Source: Vicinamibacterales bacterium
GTDB taxonomy: Bacteria > Acidobacteriota > Vicinamibacteria > Vicinamibacterales > 2-12-FULL-66-21
Direction: 5' to 3'
Length of the DNA stretch: 64,000 bases
Assembly: GCA_035699745.1 (NCBI GenBank)
Contig: DASSPH010000050.1
Span: forward strand, 1-64,000
Positions 31,656-43,805 of the stretch are shown piece after piece (position 1 is the stretch's first letter; each line of letters starts with the position of its first letter). Made by a program: the position numbers and the translations under genes. The notes under the pieces are model-generated. The model was not told where the DNA came from. It saw only the letters and a program-made list of their open reading frames with translations, and ran no database searches.

Positions 31656-34600
31656 ATGTCTGTCGCGCGTTGCTCGATTCCCTTCATCGCGTTCGCGCTG
31701 CTTCCATGGACCGCGTCGGCTCAGCCGCTCACTTTTCAGCGTGACGATCACACATCGACGGCAAGCGCACGAGGGATCGCCAGCGCGGACTTCAATCGCG
31801 ACGGCTGGCTCGACATCGTGACCGCGCACAACAATCCGGACGGCATCTCCGTGCTGATGAACCGCGGGAGCGCCGGCGGCTACGACTCGTCGTTCATCCC
31901 GCTGCCCGGCGGCCCGTTCGACGTCGCGGCCGCCGACGTCAACAAGGACGGCGCGCCCGACGTGGCGGTGGCCAACGCCGACCGCGACGCGATCGACCTG
32001 CTCTACAACGATGGCACCGGACGGTTGCAGTGGAAGCTGTCGGCAGGCGGCGTCATGAATCCGCGGGGGGTGACGATCGCCGACGTCGACCGGGACGGCA
32101 ATCCCGATCTGGTGTTCACGGAGTTCACCAACGCGCGCGTGGGCATCGCGTTCGGCGATGGTGCGGGCTCGTTCGGCGGTCCGCGTCCGGTGATCTTCCT
32201 CGGCGTCTCCGCCAATCCGCAGGGCGTCGCCGTCGCCGACTTCAACCTCGACGGGCGGCCCGACCTCGTCACGGTGTCGAGCGGCACCTTCAACATCGGC
32301 GTGACGTTCCATTTCGCGGACGCCGCCCCGGGCGCGTTCACGCGCTGGGACGTCCAGGGAACGCCGGCGCTGAACGTCGTCGCGCTCGGCGACTTCGACA
32401 AGGATGGACGGCCTGACGTCGCCGCCGCCGGATCGGCAACGAGCAACATCACCACCCTCGTCAACACGCGCGCCGGGTTCTCGATCCGCACGTTCCCGAG
32501 CGGCGGCAGCTCGCCCCGCGGCATCGCGGCGGCCGATCTGAATCGCGACGGGGCGCCGGACCTGGTGACAGCTGCGCGCGGATCCAACGCCGTGCAGGTC
32601 GCGCCTGGCGACGGCGCCGGACGATTTGGCGCGCCGGTCAGCGTGGCCGCCGGCACCGGCAGCCGCGCGGTTGCCGTCGGGGATTTCGATCGCGACGGAC
32701 GCATCGACATCGCCACCGCCAACGAGTACGTAGCGGCGGCCACCGTGCTGTCGAACGTGACCGCGTTCCCGCAGGCGGCGTTCAAGTTCCGCCGGCAGTG
32801 GCTGGGACCCGGCGACCACAACTCCTCGGGCGCCGACGACGTCGCGATCGCGGACTTCGATCACGACGGCCGGCTCGATGCCGTGAGCGAGGAGGGCTTG
32901 CACGTCCGGTTCGGCAACGGCAGCGACCTGCGGCTGGGGGAATACGGCGTCGATGTGGTGGAGTTGGACGCCAATCGTGACGGGCATCCGGACATCGTCT
33001 CCGTGTCGCAAGGGTCGAGCATCAGCGGGCCGAGCCGCCTCGGCGTCTTCATGGGCGATGGGCGCGGCAATTTCCCGGGACGGCGCACGGTCGCGACCTC
33101 GCTGCACGCGCTGAGCATCGAAACCGCGGACCTCAATCTCGACGGCCGCGCCGACATCGTCCTGGTCGGCCAGACGGAGTGGTCGGGACCGACGCGGATC
33201 CACCTGTTCGCCGGCGACGGGAACGGCGGGTTCGCCCTCGCGGCGGATTATCCGGCCGACGAGTTTCCGTTCACGCTGAGGATCGGCGATGTCGACCGCG
33301 ACGGCGATCCGGATCTCGTGACCGCGGGCAATCGCGGCGCGTCGCGCGCGGCGCGCGTGGTGACCCGTCTCAACGATCGCAACTGGACCCTGAGCGCGCC
33401 TCGCGAGACGGCCGCGCCCGCGTTGCTCGGCATCAGCTACAGCGATCTCGGCGACCTCAATCACGACGGCTTCCTCGACGTCGTCGTCGCCGGATCATCG
33501 GTCGACTGGCAAAGCCAGGAGGACGTCGCGGTGATGCTGGGCGGCCCGGCGGGCTTCGGCTCCCCCGCCTACCTGAAGATCACGGGATACAGCCTGGGCC
33601 TCTCGATCGCCGATTTCACGGCCGACGGGCACCTCGATGCGATGACGCACGCAGGCGTCCTGTTCAAGGGACGCGGCGACGGGACGTTCGAGGCCGAGGA
33701 GAGGTTCGACTTCTACGCACCGGGGGAGGTGGCCGACTTCAACGGCGACGGGCTGCCGGATCTGGTTGGCGGATCCAACCATGGCGCCGTCGAGTTGATC
33801 CTGAACCAGAGAGGCAGCGACAACGCAGCGCCGACGGTCAGCCTGACCGCCAACATCGGACCCGGCCTCACCCTGCCGTACAGCGGACAGTTCGGCGACG
33901 GCGGAAGTCAGAACGAGATCTGGGCGCACGGCGACGATCCGGATCTGCACCAGTTGAGATACACGTTCCGCGATGCGCGCGGCGAATTCGACAGCGGGAC
34001 GTTTCCGTTCTTCTGGCCGCGATATCTGATGGAGCCGGGGCAGCACGAGGTGTTCGTCGAGGTCAGCGACGGACGCGGCGGCACGGCCACTGGATCGATC
34101 GTGATCACGATCCTGCCGGAGAAAGAGATCGTCCTCCACGTCGGCGCCGCCGGATGGGACACGACCGCACGGGGCAACTGGGGGGTGGTTGACGATCCGT
34201 CGGCCGCGAGCGGCAAGGCGCTGCACGATCTGAACGCCGGACTGCCCAAGGTCACCAGCCCGAGCCCGGCGCCGGCGAACTACGTCGACGTCGGCTTCGC
34301 CGCGGACTCGACGCAGACCTACAAGCTGTGGGTACGGCTGAAGGCCGACGGCAATGCCTGGTCGAACGATTCGCTCTGGCTGCAGTTGACCAATGCGGTG
34401 GATTCGGCCGGCCGTTCGATCGCACCGGGGACCTCCGCCGGCATCGAAGTCAACCTGGAAGAGTGCTCCGGCTGCGGCGTCTCGGGCTGGGGCTGGCGCG
34501 ACGAGGCGTGGGGGCAGCGCGACGCGATCGGCACGCTGACGGTGCGGTTCACCAGGAGCGGCTGGCAGCGGCTGCGCATCCAGACGCGAGAAGACGGCGT

Positions 34601-34703
34601 GTCGGTCGACCAGGTGGTGCTGTCATCCGAGCAGTACCGGACGACGCGGCCGGGCGCAGCGAAGAACGACGCGACGATCCTGCCGCCGAGGTTCTACTGG
34701 TAA
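31656..34703 (+). CDS. large secreted FG-GAP/VCBS repeat protein with C-terminal sandwich domain
   Basis: 1015 residues. A signal peptide (SIPFIAFALLPWTASAQP) is followed by about a dozen FG-GAP-like repeats with DFNRDGWLDIVTA, DVNKDGAPDVAVA or DLNLDGRADIVLV cores, probably one or two beta-propellers with calcium loops. A bridging Ig-like section (APTVSLTANIGPG, VFVEVSDGRGGTATG) leads to a C-terminal carbohydrate-binding-like beta-sandwich: GWDTTARGNWGVVDDPSAAS, YKLWVRLKADG, WQRLRIQTREDGVSVDQVVL. It is probably an extracellular glycan- or surface-binding protein. It converges on the nine-gene envelope cluster, separated only by a REP palindrome. Confidence 0.85.
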   Translation: MSVARCSIPFIAFALLPWTASAQPLTFQRDDHTSTASARGIASADFNRDGWLDIVTAHNNPDGISVLMNRGSAGGYDSSFIPLPGGPFDVAAADVNKDGAPDVAVANADRDAIDLLYNDGTGRLQWKLSAGGVMNPRGVTIADVDRDGNPDLVFTEFTNARVGIAFGDGAGSFGGPRPVIFLGVSANPQGVAVADFNLDGRPDLVTVSSGTFNIGVTFHFADAAPGAFTRWDVQGTPALNVVALGDFDKDGRPDVAAAGSATSNITTLVNTRAGFSIRTFPSGGSSPRGIAAADLNRDGAPDLVTAARGSNAVQVAPGDGAGRFGAPVSVAAGTGSRAVAVGDFDRDGRIDIATANEYVAAATVLSNVTAFPQAAFKFRRQWLGPGDHNSSGADDVAIADFDHDGRLDAVSEEGLHVRFGNGSDLRLGEYGVDVVELDANRDGHPDIVSVSQGSSISGPSRLGVFMGDGRGNFPGRRTVATSLHALSIETADLNLDGRADIVLVGQTEWSGPTRIHLFAGDGNGGFALAADYPADEFPFTLRIGDVDRDGDPDLVTAGNRGASRAARVVTRLNDRNWTLSAPRETAAPALLGISYSDLGDLNHDGFLDVVVAGSSVDWQSQEDVAVMLGGPAGFGSPAYLKITGYSLGLSIADFTADGHLDAMTHAGVLFKGRGDGTFEAEERFDFYAPGEVADFNGDGLPDLVGGSNHGAVELILNQRGSDNAAPTVSLTANIGPGLTLPYSGQFGDGGSQNEIWAHGDDPDLHQLRYTFRDARGEFDSGTFPFFWPRYLMEPGQHEVFVEVSDGRGGTATGSIVITILPEKEIVLHVGAAGWDTTARGNWGVVDDPSAASGKALHDLNAGLPKVTSPSPAPANYVDVGFAADSTQTYKLWVRLKADGNAWSNDSLWLQLTNAVDSAGRSIAPGTSAGIEVNLEECSGCGVSGWGWRDEAWGQRDAIGTLTVRFTRSGWQRLRIQTREDGVSVDQVVLSSEQYRTTRPGAAKNDATILPPRFYW

Positions 34704-34720
34704 GGGTCCGCGGCGGCCGT

Positions 34721-34749
34721 AAAGGGTCAGACCCGGGTCTGGCCCCTTA
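34721..34749. repeat. REP-like palindrome between convergent genes
   Basis: AAGGGTCAGACCC plus an imperfect complement, closely related to the copy at 28944-28975. It overlaps the stop codon of the minus-strand gene (34747-34749) and may work as a bidirectional terminator. Confidence 0.8.
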
Positions 34750-35040
34750 CGGCTTGCCGAACGCGATCCGGGCGCGCTCCGCCTGCAGCTCGTGGAGCGT
34801 CCGCATGATGTTGTAGGCGGTGAGCTCGACCAGCACGGAGGTCACCTTGGCGTGCTGGTCGTCGTTCAGCGCGGCCTCCAGCCCGCGCATCGCCGTCAGC
34901 AGCCGCTGCTCCTGCGCGCTCAGCTCGTTGCGCGAGACTTCGCCGTCGGCGAGGGCGCTCGTGAACGATTCCAGCTTGCTCGCGCGCTCCTGAATGCCGT
35001 CGTAGCCCGCGTTTTCGTCGAACCAGCTCGTACGTGCCAC
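34747..35040 (-). CDS. small all-helical protein, last gene of the envelope cluster
   Basis: 97 residues, largely helical and charged, with LTAYNIMRTLHELQAERARI near the end; no family is recognised. GTG start at 35040 with a perfect AGGAGG 6 nt upstream that overlaps the stop codon of the AAA+ ATPase gene, so the two are translated together. No signal peptide or membrane helix, so it is cytoplasmic. The position suggests a partner or adaptor of the ATPase. The stop codon lies within a REP palindrome. Confidence 0.7.
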   Translation of the reverse strand: MARTSWFDENAGYDGIQERASKLESFTSALADGEVSRNELSAQEQRLLTAMRGLEAALNDDQHAKVTSVLVELTAYNIMRTLHELQAERARIAFGKP

Positions 35041-35050
35041 CGGTGTCCTC

Positions 35051-36871
35051 CTACAGATTCCGGACGAGTTGTTTGAGTGCGGTCAGCCGCTCCTGCAGCC
35101 CGGCGCGGCCGCCGGCCGCGTCGGTCTTCTGGAGCATGGCGGGCGGCAGGAACTGCCGATCCGTGCACTCGAGAATGGCCGCTGTCTCCTGCAGCTCCCG
35201 CTCCAATCCCTGCGTGGACGGCATGAACTCCGCCACGACGGTGGCGAGCGCCTCCTTCGTGACGTGGTCCGCGCCGGCCAGGATCGACGCGCGCAGCGCG
35301 CGGCCGACCATCCCTTCGATATCGGCGCCGGAGAGATGGCCGCGCTGCGGGATGGACGGAACGTCCTCGACGGCGATCCGCGATCCGAGCTTCTTCGCCA
35401 GGATCACGAACATCTGGCGGATCTCGGCCTCGTCGGTCGGATAGAACAGCGGGATGTGCACTTCGGCGCGCCCCTGGCGCTTGAGATCGATCGGCAGCAG
35501 GTCGGGGCGCGCGGTGAGCAGCATCCAGATGATCTGTCCGCGATACCGCGAGTCCCCCATCTGCGAGGCGATCATCGCGAACACGCGGCTCGACGTGCCG
35601 GAGTCCCCCTCCTGCTCCCGGCTGCCGAGCGCCGCGTCCGCCTCGTCGACGACGACCACGACCGGCCCCATCGCGCGCAGCACCGCGAGCACGCGCTCGA
35701 GGTTCCCTTCGGTCTCGCCGACGTACTTGGACCGGAAGTTCTTCAGCATCACGCACGGCACGCCGATTTCGCCGCTGACGCACTGCGCGAGGAACGATTT
35801 TCCGGTGCCGACGGGGCCGCACAGCAGATATCCCATCGGCAGGCTGTCGAGCGCGCCGCGCGCGAGCAGCGCCGCGTCCTCCCGCAGCCGCGTCTTCGCC
35901 GCCTCGTGACCGACGACGGTGTCGAGCGTCCATTTCGGCTCGATGAACTCGAGCAGCCCCTGGCATTGGCGCTCGAGCAGCCGCTTCTTCAGCGCACGGA
36001 ACGCGGCGGCGTCGAGACGCCGGCCGCTCTCGCGCGCCGACTGGAGCAGCACGTTCAGGTCGGTGAGCGAGATGCCCGCGGTGAGCTTCGCCAGCTCCGC
36101 GGCCGTGAAATCGGAGAACGCCCCGATCGGCGTCCCTGCGGTAGCGGCGCTGACGAACGATGCGCGCGCCCGCTCGTCCGGCAGCGGCACTTCGATCGCC
36201 GCGACGTGCGGATTGCCGATGAGACGCTCGCTCAGGTCGGACTTCTTCTCGTCGATCAGGACGAACGCCATGTTCATCCGCTTTACGTGCGGACTCATCG
36301 CCCAGTTCAGCATCGTCACCAGGTGCGACGAGGCCTGCATGTTCAGCCGTCCCGGCTCCCCTGACGGGAAGACGTAAGAGGCGTGGTCCATGACCACCGC
36401 GAGACTGAGACGATCGTCCTCGGCAGCCATGATGTTGGCGCGGACGAACCGATCGAGCACCGCGAACGCCGCCGCGGGCTCCTTCGGCAGCGCGCTGAGA
36501 TCGCCGACCTTACGATTGGCCAGCGTCACCATCTGCTTCAGCCGTTTCTCGTCCCGGCCGGCGAAGGCACGCAGTCCCCGTCCGAGGTCGTAGTGGAGGA
36601 CCAGCGACCATCGCCCGAAGACCTGTTCGGCCAGGAACTCGGCCAGGACGCCGTAGCGCCCTCCGTCAGGCTCGGCGCTCCCTGTGCCGGGCGACGCCGG
36701 TGCGGCATCCTCGCCGTCGATGCGGAAGAGATCGTAGGTATTGCCGTGCAGGACGAACGCCGCCGTCGTCCCGGAGAAGAACAGGTCCGCGAGCTGCGAG
36801 GCCCACACCGGAAACCAGACCGGCAGCTCCCCCGCGCCGCCCGGACGGGGCCGGCCGTTCTCAGGCGCCAT
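35051..36871 (-). CDS. two-domain AAA+ ATPase of the envelope cluster
   Basis: 606-residue cytoplasmic AAA+ protein. The N-terminal half (about 15-300) has an AAA-like layout without a usable Walker A (VLHGNTYDLFR, MDHASYVFP, FVLIDEKKSDLSERL). The C-terminal AAA domain is complete: Walker A GPVGTGKS (352-359), pore-loop-like KNFRSKYVGETEGNLERV, Walker B VVVVVDEADA (404-413), sensor segment LLTARPDLLPIDLKRQGR and an alpha-lid with LSGADIEGMVGRAL. The arrangement recalls FtsH/p97-type unfoldases and Ycf46-like proteins. It overlaps the upstream coiled-coil gene by 11 nt. I infer remodelling of an envelope complex encoded by the same operon; the substrate is unknown. Confidence 0.85.
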   Translation of the reverse strand: MAPENGRPRPGGAGELPVWFPVWASQLADLFFSGTTAAFVLHGNTYDLFRIDGEDAAPASPGTGSAEPDGGRYGVLAEFLAEQVFGRWSLVLHYDLGRGLRAFAGRDEKRLKQMVTLANRKVGDLSALPKEPAAAFAVLDRFVRANIMAAEDDRLSLAVVMDHASYVFPSGEPGRLNMQASSHLVTMLNWAMSPHVKRMNMAFVLIDEKKSDLSERLIGNPHVAAIEVPLPDERARASFVSAATAGTPIGAFSDFTAAELAKLTAGISLTDLNVLLQSARESGRRLDAAAFRALKKRLLERQCQGLLEFIEPKWTLDTVVGHEAAKTRLREDAALLARGALDSLPMGYLLCGPVGTGKSFLAQCVSGEIGVPCVMLKNFRSKYVGETEGNLERVLAVLRAMGPVVVVVDEADAALGSREQEGDSGTSSRVFAMIASQMGDSRYRGQIIWMLLTARPDLLPIDLKRQGRAEVHIPLFYPTDEAEIRQMFVILAKKLGSRIAVEDVPSIPQRGHLSGADIEGMVGRALRASILAGADHVTKEALATVVAEFMPSTQGLERELQETAAILECTDRQFLPPAMLQKTDAAGGRAGLQERLTALKQLVRNL

Positions 36872-37757
36872 GCTTGAGAACCTCGCGCAGATCGGACTCG
36901 AGGATCGGGGGAGGCTCCTCCAACTGATCGCCGAGCCCGGTCAGATGCTGCAGCTCGCTCACCGTCTTTTCGGTCTGGCGCATGCTCTCGGCGGCCGAAT
37001 CCACCTGGCTGCTGAGGAAATCGGGATCCTGCCGGTTGACCGTCATCTCGGCGAGCGCCTGGATCTTGCCTTCGATGCGATCCAGTTCGATGCGTACGAA
37101 CTCGGCGTTCTTCTTCGCGCGGGCGAAGTTGTCGAGCCGCAGTTCGCCGCTGGCGATGCTGTCCTGGAGGGATCGGACCACACGCTCGTCGCCGCCGGTC
37201 TGGGCCGAGGCGAGCCGGGTCCGCAGCTCCGCGAGCCGGGCGTTCAGATCCTTCTCGTCCATGGCGGCGAGGAACCGGTCGAGCGCCGTCCGTGAGACGA
37301 GCAGGCGCAGGAACAGCCAGAGCAGACGATCGAGTCCCGGGGTGCGGATGTCCTCTGCCGCGCCGGGGTGATCGCCGGCGGCGCCGCGCACGCCCGCCGC
37401 GATTTTCCGCATCTCGAGGCAGCGCCCGTGGAGCCGCTCGAAGCGGGCGCGCTCCGCCGCCGGCAGTCCGGCGAGCATCGTCACCAGCGAGGGGGCCGGC
37501 TGCTGCGGCACGTCGGCCGTGCCGGCGCCGGTGCGGCGGGCGTGCACCCTGGCGTCGATCGCGGCACGGAATCGCGGGATGGAGACGAGGCCGGCGAGAT
37601 ACGTCGCCTCTATCGCCCCGACGATCGGCAACAGCAGATCGGGGAACGGCGTGAGCGCGGCGGCCGCCGTCCCGCCGAAGAACAGCAGCAGGTTCCACCG
37701 GAAGAGAAACGCTTCCAGCAGGTAGTCCTTCAATCCCGCGCCGCGCGGCTCAGTCAT
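36861..37757 (-). CDS. membrane protein with cytoplasmic coiled coil (envelope cluster)
   Basis: 298 residues, no known family. Two hydrophobic segments near the N-terminus (NLLLFFGGTAAAALTPFPDLL and LLPIVGAIEATYLAGLVSI) are followed by more than 200 soluble, helix-prone residues with long heptad-like stretches (LAELRTRLASA, VRIELDRIEGKIQALAEM, SAAESMRQTEKTVSELQHL). The ATG at 37757 overlaps the end of the ABC ATPase gene by 8 nt. Its plan (membrane hairpin plus coiled coil) would suit a scaffold connecting the membrane to PspA or to the AAA+ ATPase encoded next; that is inference. Confidence 0.75.
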   Translation of the reverse strand: MTEPRGAGLKDYLLEAFLFRWNLLLFFGGTAAAALTPFPDLLLPIVGAIEATYLAGLVSIPRFRAAIDARVHARRTGAGTADVPQQPAPSLVTMLAGLPAAERARFERLHGRCLEMRKIAAGVRGAAGDHPGAAEDIRTPGLDRLLWLFLRLLVSRTALDRFLAAMDEKDLNARLAELRTRLASAQTGGDERVVRSLQDSIASGELRLDNFARAKKNAEFVRIELDRIEGKIQALAEMTVNRQDPDFLSSQVDSAAESMRQTEKTVSELQHLTGLGDQLEEPPPILESDLREVLKHGA

Positions 37758-38553
37758 CGCCCGCCCGCGTGGAAGAAGCGAGCCCCTCGACGATGTCGCG
37801 GATCTCGAAGACCCTGGCCAGGAACTCGGGCTCGCGCTGCATCTCCTTCGGAGGACGGTGCGGCTTCGGCACCTCCATCTGGCGCAGGATCGTGCCGGGC
37901 GCCGCCGAGAAGATGTAGACGCGGTCGCCGAGGTAGACGGCTTCCTCGATCGAGTGGGTGACGAAGAACACCGTCGCCTGCGCGTCGTGCCAGAGATCGA
38001 CGAGCAGCGCCTGCATGTTCAGACGCGTCGCCGGATCGAGCGCCCCGAACGGCTCGTCCATCAGGATGATGCGCGGCGACAGGATCAGCGTCCGCGCGAT
38101 CGCGACTCTCTGCCGCATCCCGCCGGACAGTTCGCTCGGGAACTTCCCCGCGTCGCGCGCCACGTCGAGGCCGACCTTCGCGATCCACTCGCGCGCCAGC
38201 TCGCGGCGCTCCTTGCGTGCCATGCCGCGGCATTCGAGGCCGAAGGCGACGTTGTCCTCGACCGTGCGGTTGTCGAACGAGGTGTAGTCCTGGAAGACCA
38301 TGCTGCGGTCGGATCCGGGCGCCGACACCGGCTTGCCGCCGACGAGCACCGTCCCCTCCGTCGGCGGGTGGTGCGGCGCCAGGCCGGCGATCAGGCGCAG
38401 GACGGTGGACTTGCCGCAGCCCGAAGGCCCGAGGATCGAGATGAACTCCCCTGCCCCCGGCAGATCCGGCACGCTGAAGGACACGTCGCGGATCACCGTC
38501 AGCTTGCCGAACCGCTTGGTGACGTTGGAAAACTCGACGATGCTGGGGGTCAT
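37750..38553 (-). CDS. ABC transporter ATPase, nitrate/sulfonate/taurine (NrtD/SsuB/TauB) type
   Basis: Cytoplasmic ATPase of an importer-type ABC system. Walker A GPSGCGKS, Q-loop MVFQDYTSFDNRTV, signature LSGGMRQRVAIART, Walker B RIILMDEPFGALDPATR and the H-loop FVTHSIEEAVYLGDRVYIFS are intact. The ATG at 38553 is the start; sequence upstream in this frame belongs to the permease gene in another frame. It overlaps the permease stop by 4 nt and the next gene by 8 nt. The family imports nitrate, sulfonates, thiamine precursors and similar solutes. Here the attached genes make classical nutrient import doubtful. Confidence 0.92.
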   Translation of the reverse strand: MTPSIVEFSNVTKRFGKLTVIRDVSFSVPDLPGAGEFISILGPSGCGKSTVLRLIAGLAPHHPPTEGTVLVGGKPVSAPGSDRSMVFQDYTSFDNRTVEDNVAFGLECRGMARKERRELAREWIAKVGLDVARDAGKFPSELSGGMRQRVAIARTLILSPRIILMDEPFGALDPATRLNMQALLVDLWHDAQATVFFVTHSIEEAVYLGDRVYIFSAAPGTILRQMEVPKPHRPPKEMQREPEFLARVFEIRDIVEGLASSTRAGDD

Positions 38554-39368
38554 TCCTCGACCACGCGATGCGGAAACAGCCCGCGCTGGAACCAGAGCAG
38601 CACGCGGTCGATCGCGAATGCCAGCAGGCCGATGATGATCAGAATCAGAATGATGTGCTCGGACAGTCCGCGGCGCTGGCTTGCCATCAACAGGTAGCCG
38701 AGCCCGTGCTCGGCGTTGATCAGCTCGGCGAGCATGATGTAGCCGAACGCCAGTCCGAACAGGTGCCGCAGGCTGGTGTAGATCTCCGGCAGGGCGAGCG
38801 GCACCAGCACCTTGGTGATCGCCTGCCACGGGCGCGCGCCGAGGGTCTGCGCCGTCTCGACGTAGCGGTCCGGCACGCCGGTGATCGCCGAGACGGTGTC
38901 CGAATAGACGAACGGGACGCAGGCGATGAAGATGAACATCACTTTCTGCGTCTCGTCGATGCCGAACCACAGGATCGTGAGCGGGATCAGCGCCGCCACC
39001 GGCAGGTTGCGTCCGAACAGCGCCAGCGGCGCGCCCGCCGACTCGATGACGCGCCAGGCGCCGGCGAGAATGCCCAGCGGGACGCCGATCAGCGCCGCCA
39101 GGCCGAAGCCGACCATGACGCGCTGCAGCGTCGCCGCGATGCTCTGCAGCAGCGCGCGCTCCTTCAGCAGCACGGGGAACGAGCGCAGCACTTCAATCGG
39201 GCTGGGCAGAATCACCGGCGAGATCAGCCGGTCCTCGACGTCGGCCCCGAGCGTCGCCAGCCACCACGCGAGCACGACGACGGCCAGCGCGAGGGCGCCG
39301 ATCAGGCGCCGCGTCATCCGCGGCGGTGAAAGGCGCAGCGCCAGCAGCGAGCGCCCGGCGTGCGCCAT
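38550..39368 (-). CDS. ABC transporter permease, nitrate/sulfonate/taurine type
   Basis: 272-residue inner-membrane permease with about six helices. The EAA loop reads YVETAQTLGARPWQAITKVLVPLALPEIYTSL (shortened here to its core AQTLGARPWQAITKVLVPL), the site that contacts the ATPase. SPSPIEVLRSFPVL-like sequence near the N-terminus is typical of SsuC/TauC proteins. The ATG directly abuts the TAG stop of the substrate-binding/OmpA fusion gene. It pairs with the following ATPase to form a transporter core. Confidence 0.92.
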   Translation of the reverse strand: MAHAGRSLLALRLSPPRMTRRLIGALALAVVVLAWWLATLGADVEDRLISPVILPSPIEVLRSFPVLLKERALLQSIAATLQRVMVGFGLAALIGVPLGILAGAWRVIESAGAPLALFGRNLPVAALIPLTILWFGIDETQKVMFIFIACVPFVYSDTVSAITGVPDRYVETAQTLGARPWQAITKVLVPLALPEIYTSLRHLFGLAFGYIMLAELINAEHGLGYLLMASQRRGLSEHIILILIIIGLLAFAIDRVLLWFQRGLFPHRVVEE

Positions 39369-41099
39369 CTACTTGGCGGCCGGCGTCGCTTCCGCCGGAT
39401 ACACCTTGATCTCGACCCGGCGGTTCTTGGCGTTGTTCTCCGGATCCGAGGCATCCGCCGGGCGATCCCAGCCCATCCCCGCCGTCGAGAACTGGTTCGG
39501 CTGCAGCGAGGGGAACTTCCGCAGGATCGCTTCCTTCACCGCGTTGGCGCGATTCAACGACAGCTCCTGCACCAGGCTCTTCGGCACCGAGGCCTTCATC
39601 GATCCGTCGGTGTGCCCCTCGACGACGATCCGCGCGGCGCCGTACTGGCCGGCGAGCTTGCCGATCTCCTCGACCACGAACGCGACGTTCGGATCGTAGA
39701 GCTCCTCGACCTCCTTGCCGTCCTGGTTGCGGGTGATCTTCTTGTTCAGATCCCAGGAATTCGGGAAGAAGTGGATCACCACCGTCTTGGTCAGGATCTC
39801 GTCCTTCTCCCCCTTCACCGCGCCGGCGCTCGCCGGCGCGAACTGGATGTCGTACTCGTTCTTCTGGCTGGCGTACTTCGGCTCGGCGCCGAGCTTCTGG
39901 ATGACGGAGAAATCCATCACCTGATCGAAGGGCGTCTGCTGCGTCACGGCGTTGATCCGCTTGTAGAGGAAGTAGGCCGTGTTCCAGGTCCGCTCGAAGC
40001 TGGTCGGATTGTTCTGGTTGAGGAAGAAGTCGCGGTTCTCGGCGTAGTTGGTCGAGTGGGCGTCGCCGAGCATCCCCAGCGTGTCGGTCTCCGGGATCGA
40101 GTAGCCGGCGGCCATCAGCTTGGCGACGCGCTGCTTGGCCTCCTGGGTCTTGAGATCGATCATCGCGTCGAAGATGCCGCGGGTGATCCCCTCGACGACG
40201 TCCGGGTTGTCCTTGGCGAAGTCGGCGCGCGCGAACCAGATGTCGGCGATCAGCTTGTTCGCCGTCGACGTGGTGACCAGCATGCGGTTGCCCCGCGCCT
40301 TCTCCAGGTTGTAGATGTCCGGCGCCCAGCTCACGCAGCCCGAGATGCTCTTGTCGGCGTTGAACGCGGCGGCCGCCTGGAACGCATCCTGGGTGAACTT
40401 GAAGTTGACCTCCGACGGCTGCACGCCGGCATTGATCAGCGCGTTGAGGATGAAGAAATGCGACGGCGAATTCTGCGCCAGCACCACGGTCTTGCCGCGC
40501 AGGTCCGCCATGGTCTTGATGTTCTCGCGGACGACGATGCCGTCGCCGCCGTTCGACCAGTCGACCTGCTGGTAGATGCGCGGCATGACGCGCGAGTCCT
40601 TGCGCAGCCCCTCGAGGAAGAGCGGCACCATGTCGAGCGTCGCCCAGCCGATGTGGATGTTGCCGGCGGCGTAGGCGTCGCGCATCGCGATCGGGTCGTC
40701 GATGAGGACGAGCTCGACCTTGAAGTCCCTGCCGCCGGGCGTCTTCCACAGCTTGCCCGGCTTGAAGCCGTTGTTGGCGTAGATGATCGGGCTCCACCCC
40801 GCCCAGACGTTGATCGCGAAGCGGACCGTGCGATCCGCCATCGGCGTGTAGCTCGAGATCCCCTTGACCTCGGGCAGCCGCGCCGAGGGCACGAAGTTGT
40901 ACTCCTTGACGGTCGTGATGCCGCTGTTGTCCGGCGCCTCGGCGCCGGTCTTCATCTTCGCCAGTTCGTCGGCCGTGAACTGTCCGGTCGTCTGCTTCGG
41001 CCCGATCGCGCCGTAGCGCCACAGGGCGAGGCCGACGAGGCCGAGCACGACGAGCAGAACGGCGACGTAGAACGCGGGCCTGGGCTGTCCGTTCGACAT
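39369..41099 (-). CDS. substrate-binding protein fused to an OmpA-like peptidoglycan-binding domain
   Basis: 576-residue chimera. Residues 9-28 are a single hydrophobic segment without a cleavage site, probably a membrane anchor. Residues about 90-350 form an NMT1/TauA-type periplasmic binding domain (VRFAINVWAGWSPIIYANNG, AAGNIHIGWATLDMVPLFLE, LRGKTVVLAQNSPSHFFILN). Residues about 436-568 form an OmpA domain: TVVIHFFPNSWDLN, VEGHTDGS (493-500), LSLNRANAVKEAIL and NAKNRRVEIKVYP, the residues that hold diaminopimelate. The protein would be tethered to both the inner membrane and peptidoglycan. It lies directly upstream of its permease and downstream of pspA. Confidence 0.9.
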   Translation of the reverse strand: MSNGQPRPAFYVAVLLVVLGLVGLALWRYGAIGPKQTTGQFTADELAKMKTGAEAPDNSGITTVKEYNFVPSARLPEVKGISSYTPMADRTVRFAINVWAGWSPIIYANNGFKPGKLWKTPGGRDFKVELVLIDDPIAMRDAYAAGNIHIGWATLDMVPLFLEGLRKDSRVMPRIYQQVDWSNGGDGIVVRENIKTMADLRGKTVVLAQNSPSHFFILNALINAGVQPSEVNFKFTQDAFQAAAAFNADKSISGCVSWAPDIYNLEKARGNRMLVTTSTANKLIADIWFARADFAKDNPDVVEGITRGIFDAMIDLKTQEAKQRVAKLMAAGYSIPETDTLGMLGDAHSTNYAENRDFFLNQNNPTSFERTWNTAYFLYKRINAVTQQTPFDQVMDFSVIQKLGAEPKYASQKNEYDIQFAPASAGAVKGEKDEILTKTVVIHFFPNSWDLNKKITRNQDGKEVEELYDPNVAFVVEEIGKLAGQYGAARIVVEGHTDGSMKASVPKSLVQELSLNRANAVKEAILRKFPSLQPNQFSTAGMGWDRPADASDPENNAKNRRVEIKVYPAEATPAAK

Positions 41100-41111
41100 C
41101 TGATCGACTCC

Positions 41112-41882
41112 TTAGCTGGTCTGGGTGTCGGTAGCCTTGACGTCGGCATTCTCGACCGCGGGTCCGAGATCCTTGGCGGCCTTCGACATCGGCGCGGTGT
41201 CGGGGGATTTCAGCCCCAGCTCGACCTCGAAGTCGCTGAGCGCCTGCTCCGCCAGCATGCCCTGCATGCGCTCCTCGGCCTCGATCTCGGCGATCCCTTT
41301 CTGCGACAGATCGGCGGCGACCCGCACCTTGCCGCGGTTCTGATCGATCTTCTGCTGGATCACCGACTCGATCTCGCCGAAGTCGGTGGTGAGATTTACG
41401 TCGAACGACTCGGAGAGCTTGGCGATCTCCGCTTCCGCGGCGCTCATCTTCAGCTCGGCGTCGTATTTCTGGATCTTCTCGCGCAGCTCGATCAGCTTGC
41501 TGTTGGCGTGCTGGATCTTCTTCAGGTTGTTGCCGTAGGCGGTCTCGTGCATCTGGAGCTGCCCCTCGTTGGCGGCAAGCTCCTGCTTCGCCTTCTGCAG
41601 CTCCAGGGCGAACTTCGCCGCGGTCGTGCGATCCCCGGCCTTGAGATACGCCTTGGTCTCGGCCTCGAGCTTCTGCACGTGCGACCGGTTCGCCGCCACC
41701 TGCCGGGTGACGCGCTCCACCAGGCCGCGGTACTGCTCCAGGCCGGTGCGTCCCTCCTTCAACTGCGCGACGGCGAGGTCGTACTCGTAACGCATCTGCG
41801 CAATCGGATCCGCCTCCCAGAACAGGTTGGCGACCTTGTTGATCTGCGCGACGAAGGCGGACCAGAACTTTTGCAGGATCAT
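41112..41882 (-). CDS. pspA: PspA/IM30 family membrane-stress protein
   Basis: ESCRT-III-like coiled-coil protein that binds and repairs stressed inner membranes. The 256 residues show the long helical hairpin (RYEYDLAVAQLKEGRTGLEQ, VERVTRQVAANRSHVQKLEA, LELQKAKQELAANEGQLQM, ANSKLIELREKIQKYDAEL) and the later helices with DFGEIESVIQQKIDQNRGK. The N-terminal amphipathic helix is replaced by FWSAFVAQINKVANLFWEAD. A C-terminal tail of about 35 residues is polar. GGAGC lies 5 nt before the ATG. The neighbours pspB/C/F are absent; instead it sits between a VWA lipoprotein and the binding-protein/OmpA fusion. Confidence 0.9.
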   Translation of the reverse strand: MILQKFWSAFVAQINKVANLFWEADPIAQMRYEYDLAVAQLKEGRTGLEQYRGLVERVTRQVAANRSHVQKLEAETKAYLKAGDRTTAAKFALELQKAKQELAANEGQLQMHETAYGNNLKKIQHANSKLIELREKIQKYDAELKMSAAEAEIAKLSESFDVNLTTDFGEIESVIQQKIDQNRGKVRVAADLSQKGIAEIEAEERMQGMLAEQALSDFEVELGLKSPDTAPMSKAAKDLGPAVENADVKATDTQTS

Positions 41883-41915
41883 GTCAGCTCCCAGCTTCCG
41901 GCTGCCGGCTTCCGG

Positions 41916-42824
41916 CTATTTCTTCAAAGGCGCTTCCGCGCCGGTGACGGCTTCCGCCAGAATCTTGCCCTGATAGATGTCGTCGAGCGCCTTCTGCAGC
42001 TCGGCTCCGGTGTTGGCGCCGATGACGTCGCCGCCGACCTCCTTGAGGAAGCCGAACTTGTCGGGCGACGTGTCGAAGGCGACGAAGTACACCTGCACGC
42101 CGCGCTGGCTCTTGCTCCAGATGTCGCGCGCGACGCGCTCGGGGCTGCGGCCGTTGGTGTTCTCGCCGTCCGTGACCACGATCAGGTACTTGCGGAAGAC
42201 GCCGGCGCGGTAGAGATCCGGGCGCGCCTCGCGCATGGCGTCGCCGATCGCGGTGCCGCCGCCCGGCGCGGGCAGCTCGGCGAGCGCCGCGCGCACGCCG
42301 GCGCGATCGTACGGCTGAATCGGCCGCAGCGTACGGACCCCGCTCGAGAAGCTGTAGACGCCGATCTTGATGGGGAAATCCGGCCGCCTGGCGATGAAGG
42401 CGTCGGTGGCGTCGAGCATCGCCTCGAGGGCCTCGCGCGCGACCGCGTGCTTGCGCCGCGAGTCGCCGGGAACGTACTCCTTCATCGAACCGGAGGTGTC
42501 GACGAGAATCGCCACCGCGGCGCCCAGCCCCTCTTCGACCTCGGCTTGATACGGCGCGGAGGACTCGGGCTCGGAAACCGCCGCGGGCGGCTGCTCGCGC
42601 GGCCTGGCCTCGCACGCCGCAAGCGCGGCCGTCAGCAGCAGCACGCCCAGAAAAAGGGGACAGTCCCCTTTTCGGCGCGGGGCCGTCAGCAGCAGCAGAA
42701 AAAGGGGACTGTCCCCTTTTCGGCGCGGGATGAAGCCGGACCTGCTCGAAGCGGTCTGAGTCACCGGCGCGCAGATTGGCATCGGGGCAGCCCGCAGTCT
42801 ACCGTCGGGGTCGGCCGTGATCAA
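41916..42824 (-). CDS. VWA-domain lipoprotein of the envelope cluster
   Basis: von Willebrand A domain with an intact metal site: VAILVDTSGSMKEYVPGD (DxSxS), the Thr-containing loop GGGTAIGDAMREARPD and VVTDGENTNGRSPERV. It is preceded by a lipoprotein signal, LLLTAALAAC, so the mature protein would be lipid-anchored. The region before the lipobox is two translated REP units (PRRKGDSPLF and PRRKGDCPLF) that now provide the basic n-region of the signal. The start is uncertain: TTG 42824, ATG 42782 or an internal GTG. TTG 42824 follows the previous stop by one base. The gap to pspA is 33 nt. Confidence 0.82.
   Translation of the reverse strand: MITADPDGRLRAAPMPICAPVTQTASSRSGFIPRRKGDSPLFLLLLTAPRRKGDCPLFLGVLLLTAALAACEARPREQPPAAVSEPESSAPYQAEVEEGLGAAVAILVDTSGSMKEYVPGDSRRKHAVAREALEAMLDATDAFIARRPDFPIKIGVYSFSSGVRTLRPIQPYDRAGVRAALAELPAPGGGTAIGDAMREARPDLYRAGVFRKYLIVVTDGENTNGRSPERVARDIWSKSQRGVQVYFVAFDTSPDKFGFLKEVGGDVIGANTGAELQKALDDIYQGKILAEAVTGAEAPLKK
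42651..42729. repeat. tandem pair of REP-like palindromes inside the VWA gene
   Basis: Two 31-bp copies (42651-42681 and 42699-42729, period 48 bp) with core AAAAGGGGACAGTCCCCTTT, the second with ACT for ACA, separated by a duplicated piece of the gene (GCCGTCAGCAGCAGCAG). Both are in frame in the signal-peptide coding part. Confidence 0.85.
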
Positions 42825-42825
42825 G

Positions 42826-43155
42826 TTAGCGGTCCCGGCGCTCGAAGGTCAGGTAGAGCGGACCGACACCGAGAATGCCGAGCAGCGACAGGGTGCCGCT
42901 CCCGGCGCGGTTCACGACGACGAACCGGGCGTGCTCGCCCGGCTGGAGGTCCACCTCGATGTTTTTCCAGAACAAGGTGTTGTGCGCCTTCAGACGATGC
43001 CGGCCAGGCGCGACGCTCTTCGTCGCCTGCTGACCGAAGAGCAGCGTCCCCAGCCGCTCACCGTCCATCGACACCACGATCTGACGGTCGCGGACGTCAT
43101 TCGGTTCAGTGCGCGTGACCGTGACGCGCGCGGGCTCAGCGGCGGGGTCGGCCAT
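42826..43155 (-). CDS. small beta-rich protein, probable first gene of the envelope cluster
   Basis: 109 residues with alternating strands: RVTVTRTEPNDVRDRQIVVS, DGERLGTLLFGQQATKSVAP, GRHRLKAHNTLFWKNIEVDL and GEHARFVVVNRAG. It ends in a hydrophobic segment (TLSLLGILGVGPLYLTF). The pattern resembles a PEGA-like or carboxypeptidase-regulatory sandwich with a C-terminal membrane anchor, but I do not name a family. ATG start at 43155. A promoter-like TTGAAA-18-TAAGAT lies 28 nt upstream. The next gene (VWA) can start one base after its stop, which ties it to the cluster. Confidence 0.65.
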   Translation of the reverse strand: MADPAAEPARVTVTRTEPNDVRDRQIVVSMDGERLGTLLFGQQATKSVAPGRHRLKAHNTLFWKNIEVDLQPGEHARFVVVNRAGSGTLSLLGILGVGPLYLTFERRDR

Positions 43156-43182
43156 AGGGAAAAAAAGTCATGGACTCGGAAG

Positions 43183-43212
43183 ATCTTACCGTCTGCGAAC
43201 GCGACAATTTCA
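43183..43212 (-). promoter_or_regulatory. candidate promoter of the nine-gene envelope cluster
   Basis: Minus strand: TTGAAA (43212-43207), 18-nt spacer, TAAGAT (43188-43183). The leader to the first ATG would be about 20 nt. Confidence 0.5.
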
Positions 43213-43287
43213 ACCGCGCGCGCAAATTCCGGCGGAACTTTCGACAGATGAGATGGATCCGGTTTTGCTGGCGCGGTCCGCATCCGT

Positions 43288-43446
43288 ATGCGCATCCTGT
43301 GGGCCCTCCCTCTCGTCCTCCTCGCCGGCGCCGGTCTGGTCGCACGCTTCCGCCGCCGCGGCGAGTCGCATCACGTCCCCACCTCGGAACCGGTCAGCGG
43401 GCAGTGGCTCGCGGAAGCACGCTCCCGCGAGGACCATCCCTGGTGA
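43288..43446 (+). CDS. 52-residue single-pass membrane protein
   Basis: Short gene reading MRILWALPLVLLAGAGLVAR, then RRRGESHH and a polar tail ending EARSREDHPW. It has one N-terminal helix followed by a basic stop-transfer patch. Its TGA overlaps the GTG of the next gene in a 4-nt GTGA junction, the usual sign of coupled translation, which is the main support. No family is known. A membrane partner for the RodZ-like HTH protein is a reasonable guess. Confidence 0.55.
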   Translation: MRILWALPLVLLAGAGLVARFRRRGESHHVPTSEPVSGQWLAEARSREDHPW

Positions 43447-43805
43447 CCCCGCAGACGTTCGGTCAGAAGCTCCGCCGCGAGCGCGAGAAGAAGCGCCTCG
43501 GCCTGGACCACCTCGCGGCGCGGACCAAGGTCGGCGCCAGCCTGCTCCGCGCGATGGAGGCCGGCGACTGCTCGCGCTGGCCCGGCGGCATCTACAGCCG
43601 CGGATACATCCGCGCCTACGCCGAGGCCGTCGGCCTCGACCCCGAGCACACGGTGGGAATGTTCGTGGAATGCTACCCGGCGTTCGCCCCGCCCGTCGAC
43701 CCCGTACCGGAAGCGCCCGCGGACGACAGTCCGCAGACGCCCCTCGACAAGGTGAAATCCGCCGTCGCGGCGCTCTTCAGAGTCGCCAGCGAGTCCCGGC
43801 GTTAA
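43443..43805 (+). CDS. RodZ-like helix-turn-helix protein
   Basis: 120-residue cytoplasmic protein with an HTH_25 domain: FGQKLRREREKKRLGLDHLA, ARTKVGASLLRAMEAGD, WPGGIYSRGYIRAYAEAVGL. This is the N-terminal module of RodZ and related cell-shape or regulatory proteins. The membrane helix and periplasmic domain of RodZ are missing, although a separate small membrane protein is encoded just upstream with a GTGA overlap. The GTG at 43443 is chosen for that overlap and because the domain begins there; the frame upstream is shadow. Confidence 0.82.
   Translation: MTPQTFGQKLRREREKKRLGLDHLAARTKVGASLLRAMEAGDCSRWPGGIYSRGYIRAYAEAVGLDPEHTVGMFVECYPAFAPPVDPVPEAPADDSPQTPLDKVKSAVAALFRVASESRR

Follow-up and report, generated by a model that had tools for sequence, protein, structure and literature searches.

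What does a bacterium do with a gene cluster that sets a PspA protein beside a transporter, a wall-binding receptor and an AAA+ ATPase? We addressed this question for positions 34747-43155 of a 64,000-nucleotide stretch (hereafter, the window) of a Vicinamibacterales bacterium (GenBank assembly GCA_035699745.1, contig DASSPH010000050.1, positions 1 to 64,000), where an earlier note, made from the sequence alone, had described a nine-gene envelope cluster. All nine open reading frames (ORFs) are present, head to tail on the minus strand. The conserved unit is made up of eight of them, which encode a VWA-domain lipoprotein, PspA, a fusion of a substrate-binding protein (SBP) with an OmpA domain, an ATP-binding cassette (ABC) permease and its ATPase, a helical protein with two transmembrane (TM) segments, an AAA+ ATPase and a 97-residue protein. 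This grouping is far beyond chance, its gene order being repeated in dozens of genomes from several phyla. Gene content, domains, intact ATPase motifs, neighbourhood, co-inheritance of unlinked genes and the fold of the fusion were established directly. The function that we favour, to which we give an even chance, is that of an ESCRT-III-like machine that remodels PspA for membrane maintenance and senses through a tether to the wall; we favour it because PspA and the fusion stay paired, the AAA+ ATPase follows them when unlinked, and one subtype of the cluster does without the permease.

The boundaries of the unit emerged from its relatives. In transcription order, the nine ORFs encode a 109-residue DUF2846-like protein, the VWA lipoprotein, PspA, the SBP/OmpA fusion, the permease, the ABC ATPase, the 298-residue helical protein, the AAA+ ATPase and the 97-residue protein. 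Successive intervals from the VWA gene through the 97-residue gene are 33, 12, 0, -4, -8, -11 and 10 nucleotides, and the first ORF lies 43 nucleotides from the VWA gene, or 1 nucleotide if a TTG at 42824 serves as the start codon. That first ORF (42826-43155, minus strand) matches DUF2846 at 5.4e-4, below the Pfam cut-off, and represents a real but small family whose homologues in relatives sit on other contigs, including in genomes that lack the cluster. Because none of these homologues adjoins the cluster among the relatives' loci, we rejected this gene as a ninth member and take the conserved unit to be eight genes, with the 109-residue ORF adjoining it from outside. In five relatives whose fusions are 83-89% identical to that of the window, the VWA gene comes first in the cluster and the genes upstream of it vary. 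A promoter proposed at 43212-43183 did not hold up either: its TTGAAA and TAAGAT elements are separated by a 19-nucleotide spacer, and a consensus scan of 34500-43700 returned no promoter-like site. Given this null scan, single transcription of the cluster would follow from gene spacing only. The palindrome reported at the far end is real, a REP-like (repetitive extragenic palindromic) 38-nucleotide inverted repeat at 34716-34753 with 19-nucleotide arms that are 89% complementary, which marks the cluster end and overlaps the last codons of the 97-residue gene. Pfam likewise returned the domains named beforehand (VWA, PspA_IM30, OmpA and NMT1, BPD_transp_1, ABC_tran and AAA), with the E-values given for each protein below.

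A scan for the fusion with one genome per species yielded 138 relatives, and 80 loci were retained, from Acidobacteriota, Myxococcota, Pseudomonadota (mostly Lysobacterales), Gemmatimonadota, Planctomycetota and Fermentibacterota. The fusion tree resolves two well-separated groups, A (n = 44, the window included) and B (n = 36). PspA adjoins the fusion in 29 of 31 type A loci with enough flank and the permease and ATPase are present in 23 of 27; the helical protein occurs in 22 loci, the AAA+ ATPase in 19, the 97-residue protein in 15 and the VWA protein in only 6 of 31, a frequency that does not bear out the VWA protein as a core component. Type B loci carry the permease and ATPase in 23 of 24, the helical protein in 21, the AAA+ ATPase in 13, PspA in 15 of 28, and a 209-residue gene without a known family in 24 of 28. 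Type B clusters (L040:5524-6153 and further loci) begin with such a no-family gene of 209-226 residues, at the position that the VWA gene holds in type A. A third set of fusions, type C, is more distant than A and B and comes from relatives that belong to the same family and order as the window; its gene set comprises the helical protein, the AAA+ ATPase, PspA, the fusion, a flavin amine oxidase and the VWA protein, and lacks the ABC genes. The oxidase (L048:5250-6728 and L049:1326-2807; PF01593, 6.7e-57), encoded between the fusion and the VWA protein, has a Tat-like N-terminus. The recurring neighbourhood that the earlier note asked about thus exists, and the scattering of homologues over unrelated contexts, which it named as evidence against a single system, was looked for and not found; even where unlinked, the single-copy orthologues stay in the genome.

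Loci in which the cluster has come apart are informative here. Four Lysobacterales loci are reduced to PspA and the fusion. In each of these genomes the AAA+ ATPase has exactly one orthologue (E < 1e-250), encoded elsewhere, as are a single helical protein (E < 1e-90) and a single permease (58-62% identity). Because broken-up clusters retain single-copy orthologues, the gene set probably constitutes one functional system, a conclusion to which these comparative data point. Of 119 genomes from the window's phylum, 13 have a full-length fusion; the AAA+ ATPase accompanies it in 12 of them and occurs in 10 of the remaining 106 (Fisher P = 8e-10, uncorrected for relatedness). Fusion and AAA+ gene lie on different contigs in three of the 12 genomes that have both (G115, G129 and G165). 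The sole genome with a full-length fusion and no AAA+ ATPase (G137) has its fusion near a contig end, and two congeneric genomes have the ATPase. In Archangium-type genomes a second cluster holds the AAA+ gene together with PspA, another copy of the helical protein and a binding protein that lacks an OmpA domain; PspA was found in this second cluster in G105, G107 and G108. The second clusters at L154, L155 and L150 also include a further ABC unit and a protein-kinase-like gene, and their OmpA-less binding protein is TauA-like. These distributions bear on whether the cluster is simply two unrelated modules, a transporter and a Psp stress unit, that share an operon by chance or through common regulation. 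Independent promoters are possible, and gene order varies in Planctomycetota, where the AAA+ gene and a small gene stand between PspA and the fusion, but the genes occur together in several phyla and are retained in the same genome once the cluster has broken up, which makes this explanation very improbable.

The partner that stays with PspA is the fusion (39369-41099, minus strand; 576 residues), in which a TM anchor, a linker, a binding domain, a second linker and a peptidoglycan-binding domain follow one another (NMT1, 6e-7; OmpA, 4e-10). The anchor spans residues 8-28 (41016-41078), where the structural model has a helix; hydrophobicity peaks at 2.58 at residue 9, and there is no lipobox. 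Residues 88-412 (39864-40838) adopt the TauA/SsuA fold, superposing on TauA 6ssy with a Z-score of 30.1 and a root-mean-square deviation of 2.8 Å over 289 residues and on SsuA with a Z-score of 25.7, and phmmer aligned this domain to TauA at 9.5e-12. The OmpA/Pal domain (residues 454-568; 39396-39740) resembles Pal 4g4w (Z-score 15.9) and the Acinetobacter OmpA domain 3td5 with its bound peptide stem (Z-score 15.2). Alignments show Asp498 and Arg517 unchanged across types A, B and C; we take these residues to be the counterparts of the diaminopimelate-binding pair of Acinetobacter OmpA. These data bear out the chimera named in the earlier note: an inner-membrane anchor leads into a TauA-like domain, and the Pal/OmpA domain behind it carries the two invariant candidate peptidoglycan residues. 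Since it has both a TM anchor and a peptidoglycan-binding domain, the fusion can link inner membrane and wall, and it would bridge them in the cell. One Acidobacteria metagenome-assembled genome has a fusion gene split over several frames (L087:1785-3497) within an otherwise intact cluster, through a frameshift or an assembly error.

This architecture invites a reading, put forward in the earlier note, in which the fusion is a tether and distance gauge: docking on the ABC proteins would be set by the spacing between membrane and wall, and the ABC core would serve as a mechanosensory transducer rather than an importer. The anchor and the peptidoglycan domain flank the SBP through stretches of low model confidence (residues 27-71 and 418-438) that are probably flexible linkers, and type C keeps the fusion with PspA, the AAA+ ATPase and the VWA protein and has a permease orthologue in 0 of 6 genomes. 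Set against this are the TauA-type fold and conserved blocks retained by the SBP, which suggest ligand binding, the intact motifs of the ABC ATPase, and the draft state of the type C genomes (81-97% completeness), and we consider such a gauge unlikely.

The transport genes themselves raise the converse question of whether the cluster is an importer. The permease (38550-39368, minus strand; 272 residues) is of the NrtB/SsuC/TauC type (BPD_transp_1, 1.5e-21), with matches to NF040733 (1.8e-42) and TauC (1.4e-33) that are both below the equivalog cut-off. The ATPase (37750-38553, minus strand; 267 residues) is of the TauB/NrtD type (ABC_tran, 1.8e-28; TauB-type NCBIfam model, 1.4e-60, under its cut-off), and its Walker A, Walker B and signature motifs are intact. 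These genes could form a wall-anchored importer of a small solute of the TauA/SsuA type (sulfonate-, phosphonate- or nitrate-like), with PspA, the AAA+ ATPase and the helical protein serving transporter assembly or quality control. An SBP nearest TauA and SsuA, a permease and ATPase nearest the Tau, Ssu and Nrt types, and co-inheritance of the transport parts in types A and B all accord with import. Yet every NCBIfam equivalog cut-off for TauABC, SsuABC and NrtABC was missed (SBP, 79 versus 334 bits; permease, 146 versus 295; ATPase, 205 versus 357), the pair that remains in Lysobacterales is PspA and the fusion rather than fusion and permease, and type C lacks a permease orthologue, which means that the system does not act as an importer throughout. 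We assign this importer a low probability.

The remaining core proteins lead back to the PspA-remodelling machine that we favour. The cluster's PspA/IM30 family protein (41112-41882, minus strand; 256 residues), a member of the ESCRT-III superfamily, exceeds the Pfam cut-off (PF04012, 9e-10) and was the single PspA match in a search of the host genome. Over residues 1-203 its profile matches solved PspA (7o3w, 8qfv) and Vipp1 chains, which are polymer-forming structures. The AAA+ ATPase (35051-36871, minus strand; 606 residues; Pfam AAA, 2.8e-23 at residues 348-474) has CDC48/VCP as its best profile match, the alignment covering the D1-lid and D2 region of VCP; its match to CdvC was weaker (3.4e-12), and Pfam returned no MIT domain. 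It has a single Walker A at residue 352 and Walker B residues DE at 409-410, placing intact motifs in a C-terminal AAA domain; the N-terminal half has no Walker A. The alignment shows no variation in Walker A, in Walker B or in the arginines of the second region of homology. The gene that follows encodes the 97-residue helical protein (34747-35040, minus strand; GTG start), which is conserved: the loci contain 22 homologues, located next to the AAA+ gene and spread over phyla that include Planctomycetota; it has no solved relative and no Pfam or NCBIfam family.

The two-TM helical-bundle protein (36861-37757, minus strand; 298 residues) has no family match in Pfam or NCBIfam. Its model (mean pLDDT 84) shows a hairpin at residues 20-34 and 39-58 and long helices over residues 100-273. 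Because an arginine-rich segment comes just after the hairpin, the positive-inside rule would place the bundle in the cytoplasm. Two candidate identities gained no significant support: profile comparison gave a probability of 0.5% for a PspA paralogue, and matches to CdvB2 and BAR chains (Foldseek E = 0.23, Z-score 6.7) do not rise above the noise expected of helical bundles.

Together, the eight genes would form one inner-membrane maintenance machine resembling an ESCRT-III/ATPase pair. PspA would form polymers on the inner membrane at its cytoplasmic surface, its subunits would be extracted or recycled by the CDC48-like AAA+ ATPase, and the two-TM helical protein may be the membrane-bound adaptor that positions both. 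The fusion would span the periplasm from its inner-membrane anchor through the TauA-like domain to peptidoglycan; in subtypes A and B the TauA-like domain would dock on the permease and ATPase and relay the periplasmic state, either ligand or wall contact, inward to the cytoplasm. The VWA lipoprotein and the 97-residue protein may be accessory. We infer which proteins make physical contact, that PspA is the AAA+ substrate, which way the signal runs and whether solute transport occurs. In favour of this PspA-remodelling machine, the same role has been proposed independently for such operons in the relevant passages of Ravi et al. (mSystems 2024, PMC11237479). Several points weigh against it: PspA is a putative AAA+ substrate by gene association, the helical protein has no significant PspA or ESCRT-III similarity, the intact ABC core could simply import, and ten genomes without a full-length fusion (including G119, G134, G146, G153, G163, G189, G192, G211 and G218) have a relative of the AAA+ ATPase, which thus works in other settings too. 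A more far-reaching version, which we think quite unlikely, gives bacteria a full ESCRT-III-like machine that has a CDC48-type unfoldase to itself and is steered from outside: the wall-tethered binding protein and ABC core, as a transducer, would switch PspA assembly or disassembly where membrane-peptidoglycan spacing is lost. Work on PspA polymers (PMC11746142) left open which enzyme turns them over. One AAA+ family tracks a single PspA/fusion pair, also in genomes where the genes lie at a distance from each other, and the cluster offers a candidate pair for the question of a dedicated unfoldase for bacterial ESCRT-III proteins, here linked to a wall-anchored receptor.

Further features lie in and around the cluster. 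The VWA lipoprotein (41916-42782, minus strand; 288 residues; VWA_2, 1.2e-13) has the lipobox LAAC ending at Cys57 and a complete metal-ion-dependent adhesion site (DTSGS, T, TDG); tblastn gave 18 matches to its gene across all loci, and the gene comes first in the cluster in close relatives. Two copies of the palindrome AAAAGGGGACWGTCCCCTTTT (42652-42672 and 42700-42720) lie in the region coding for its signal peptide; both are in frame and encode part of the hydrophobic stretch (KGDSPLFLLLL, KGDCPLFLGVLLL), and the exact palindrome has 7 sites genome-wide, two of them in this gene. Convergent with the cluster, the plus strand at 31656-34703 encodes a 1015-residue protein with repeated VADFNxDGxxD motifs of the FG-GAP/VCBS type.

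How does the cluster compare with known systems? The earlier note knew of no described system with this gene set, a view superseded by Ravi et al. (2024), whose passages on the subject describe operons in which PspA, or a Snf7 homologue bearing a TM segment, is joined by an ATPase with two AAA domains, an ABC ATPase, a permease and a PBPB/OmpA protein (example OGG56892.1); the role proposed there is ATP-dependent remodelling of membranes, tied to the transport of solutes. By that description the window cluster is a member of this operon type: PspA, the ABC ATPase, the permease and the binding-protein/OmpA fusion are shared and all were found here, and the first of the two AAA domains in those operons is described as lacking catalytic motifs; the N-terminal half of the window's AAA+ ATPase, which has no Walker A, may be such a domain. 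The Snf7 homologue described there has a TM segment; the helical protein here has a TM hairpin, whereas its ESCRT-III similarity is not significant. The main text does not mention the VWA lipoprotein or the 97-residue protein, and its passages on these operons describe neither subtypes nor co-inheritance of unlinked genes; our analysis adds the VWA and small-protein partners, divides the clusters into three subtypes, shows that unlinked genes are co-inherited and supplies a model of the fusion. A search of the literature available to us found no experimental study of the gene set.

The classical Psp system (PspABC/PspF) shares PspA with the cluster, whereas the AAA+ protein here is CDC48-like rather than an NtrC-type transcription activator, and a Pfam scan found no PspB, PspC or PspF among the nine ORFs. 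TauABC, SsuABC and NrtABCD share the SBP fold and the permease and ATPase types, although no equivalog cut-off was reached and the SBP here is TM-anchored, fused to an OmpA domain and linked to PspA and an AAA+ ATPase. Pal and OmpA C-terminal domains have the fold of the cluster's peptidoglycan-binding domain along with its invariant Asp and Arg, the carrier here being an inner-membrane-anchored binding protein rather than an outer-membrane protein. The ESCRT-III and Vps4 systems of archaea and eukaryotes contain nothing equivalent to the periplasmic SBP/OmpA fusion or the ABC proteins; the window's polymer protein is PspA-type rather than CdvB/Snf7-type, and its AAA+ ATPase keeps a first half without a Walker A and has no MIT domain match. 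What the cluster shares with those systems is an ESCRT-III superfamily protein beside a dedicated AAA+ ATPase of the CDC48 clade.

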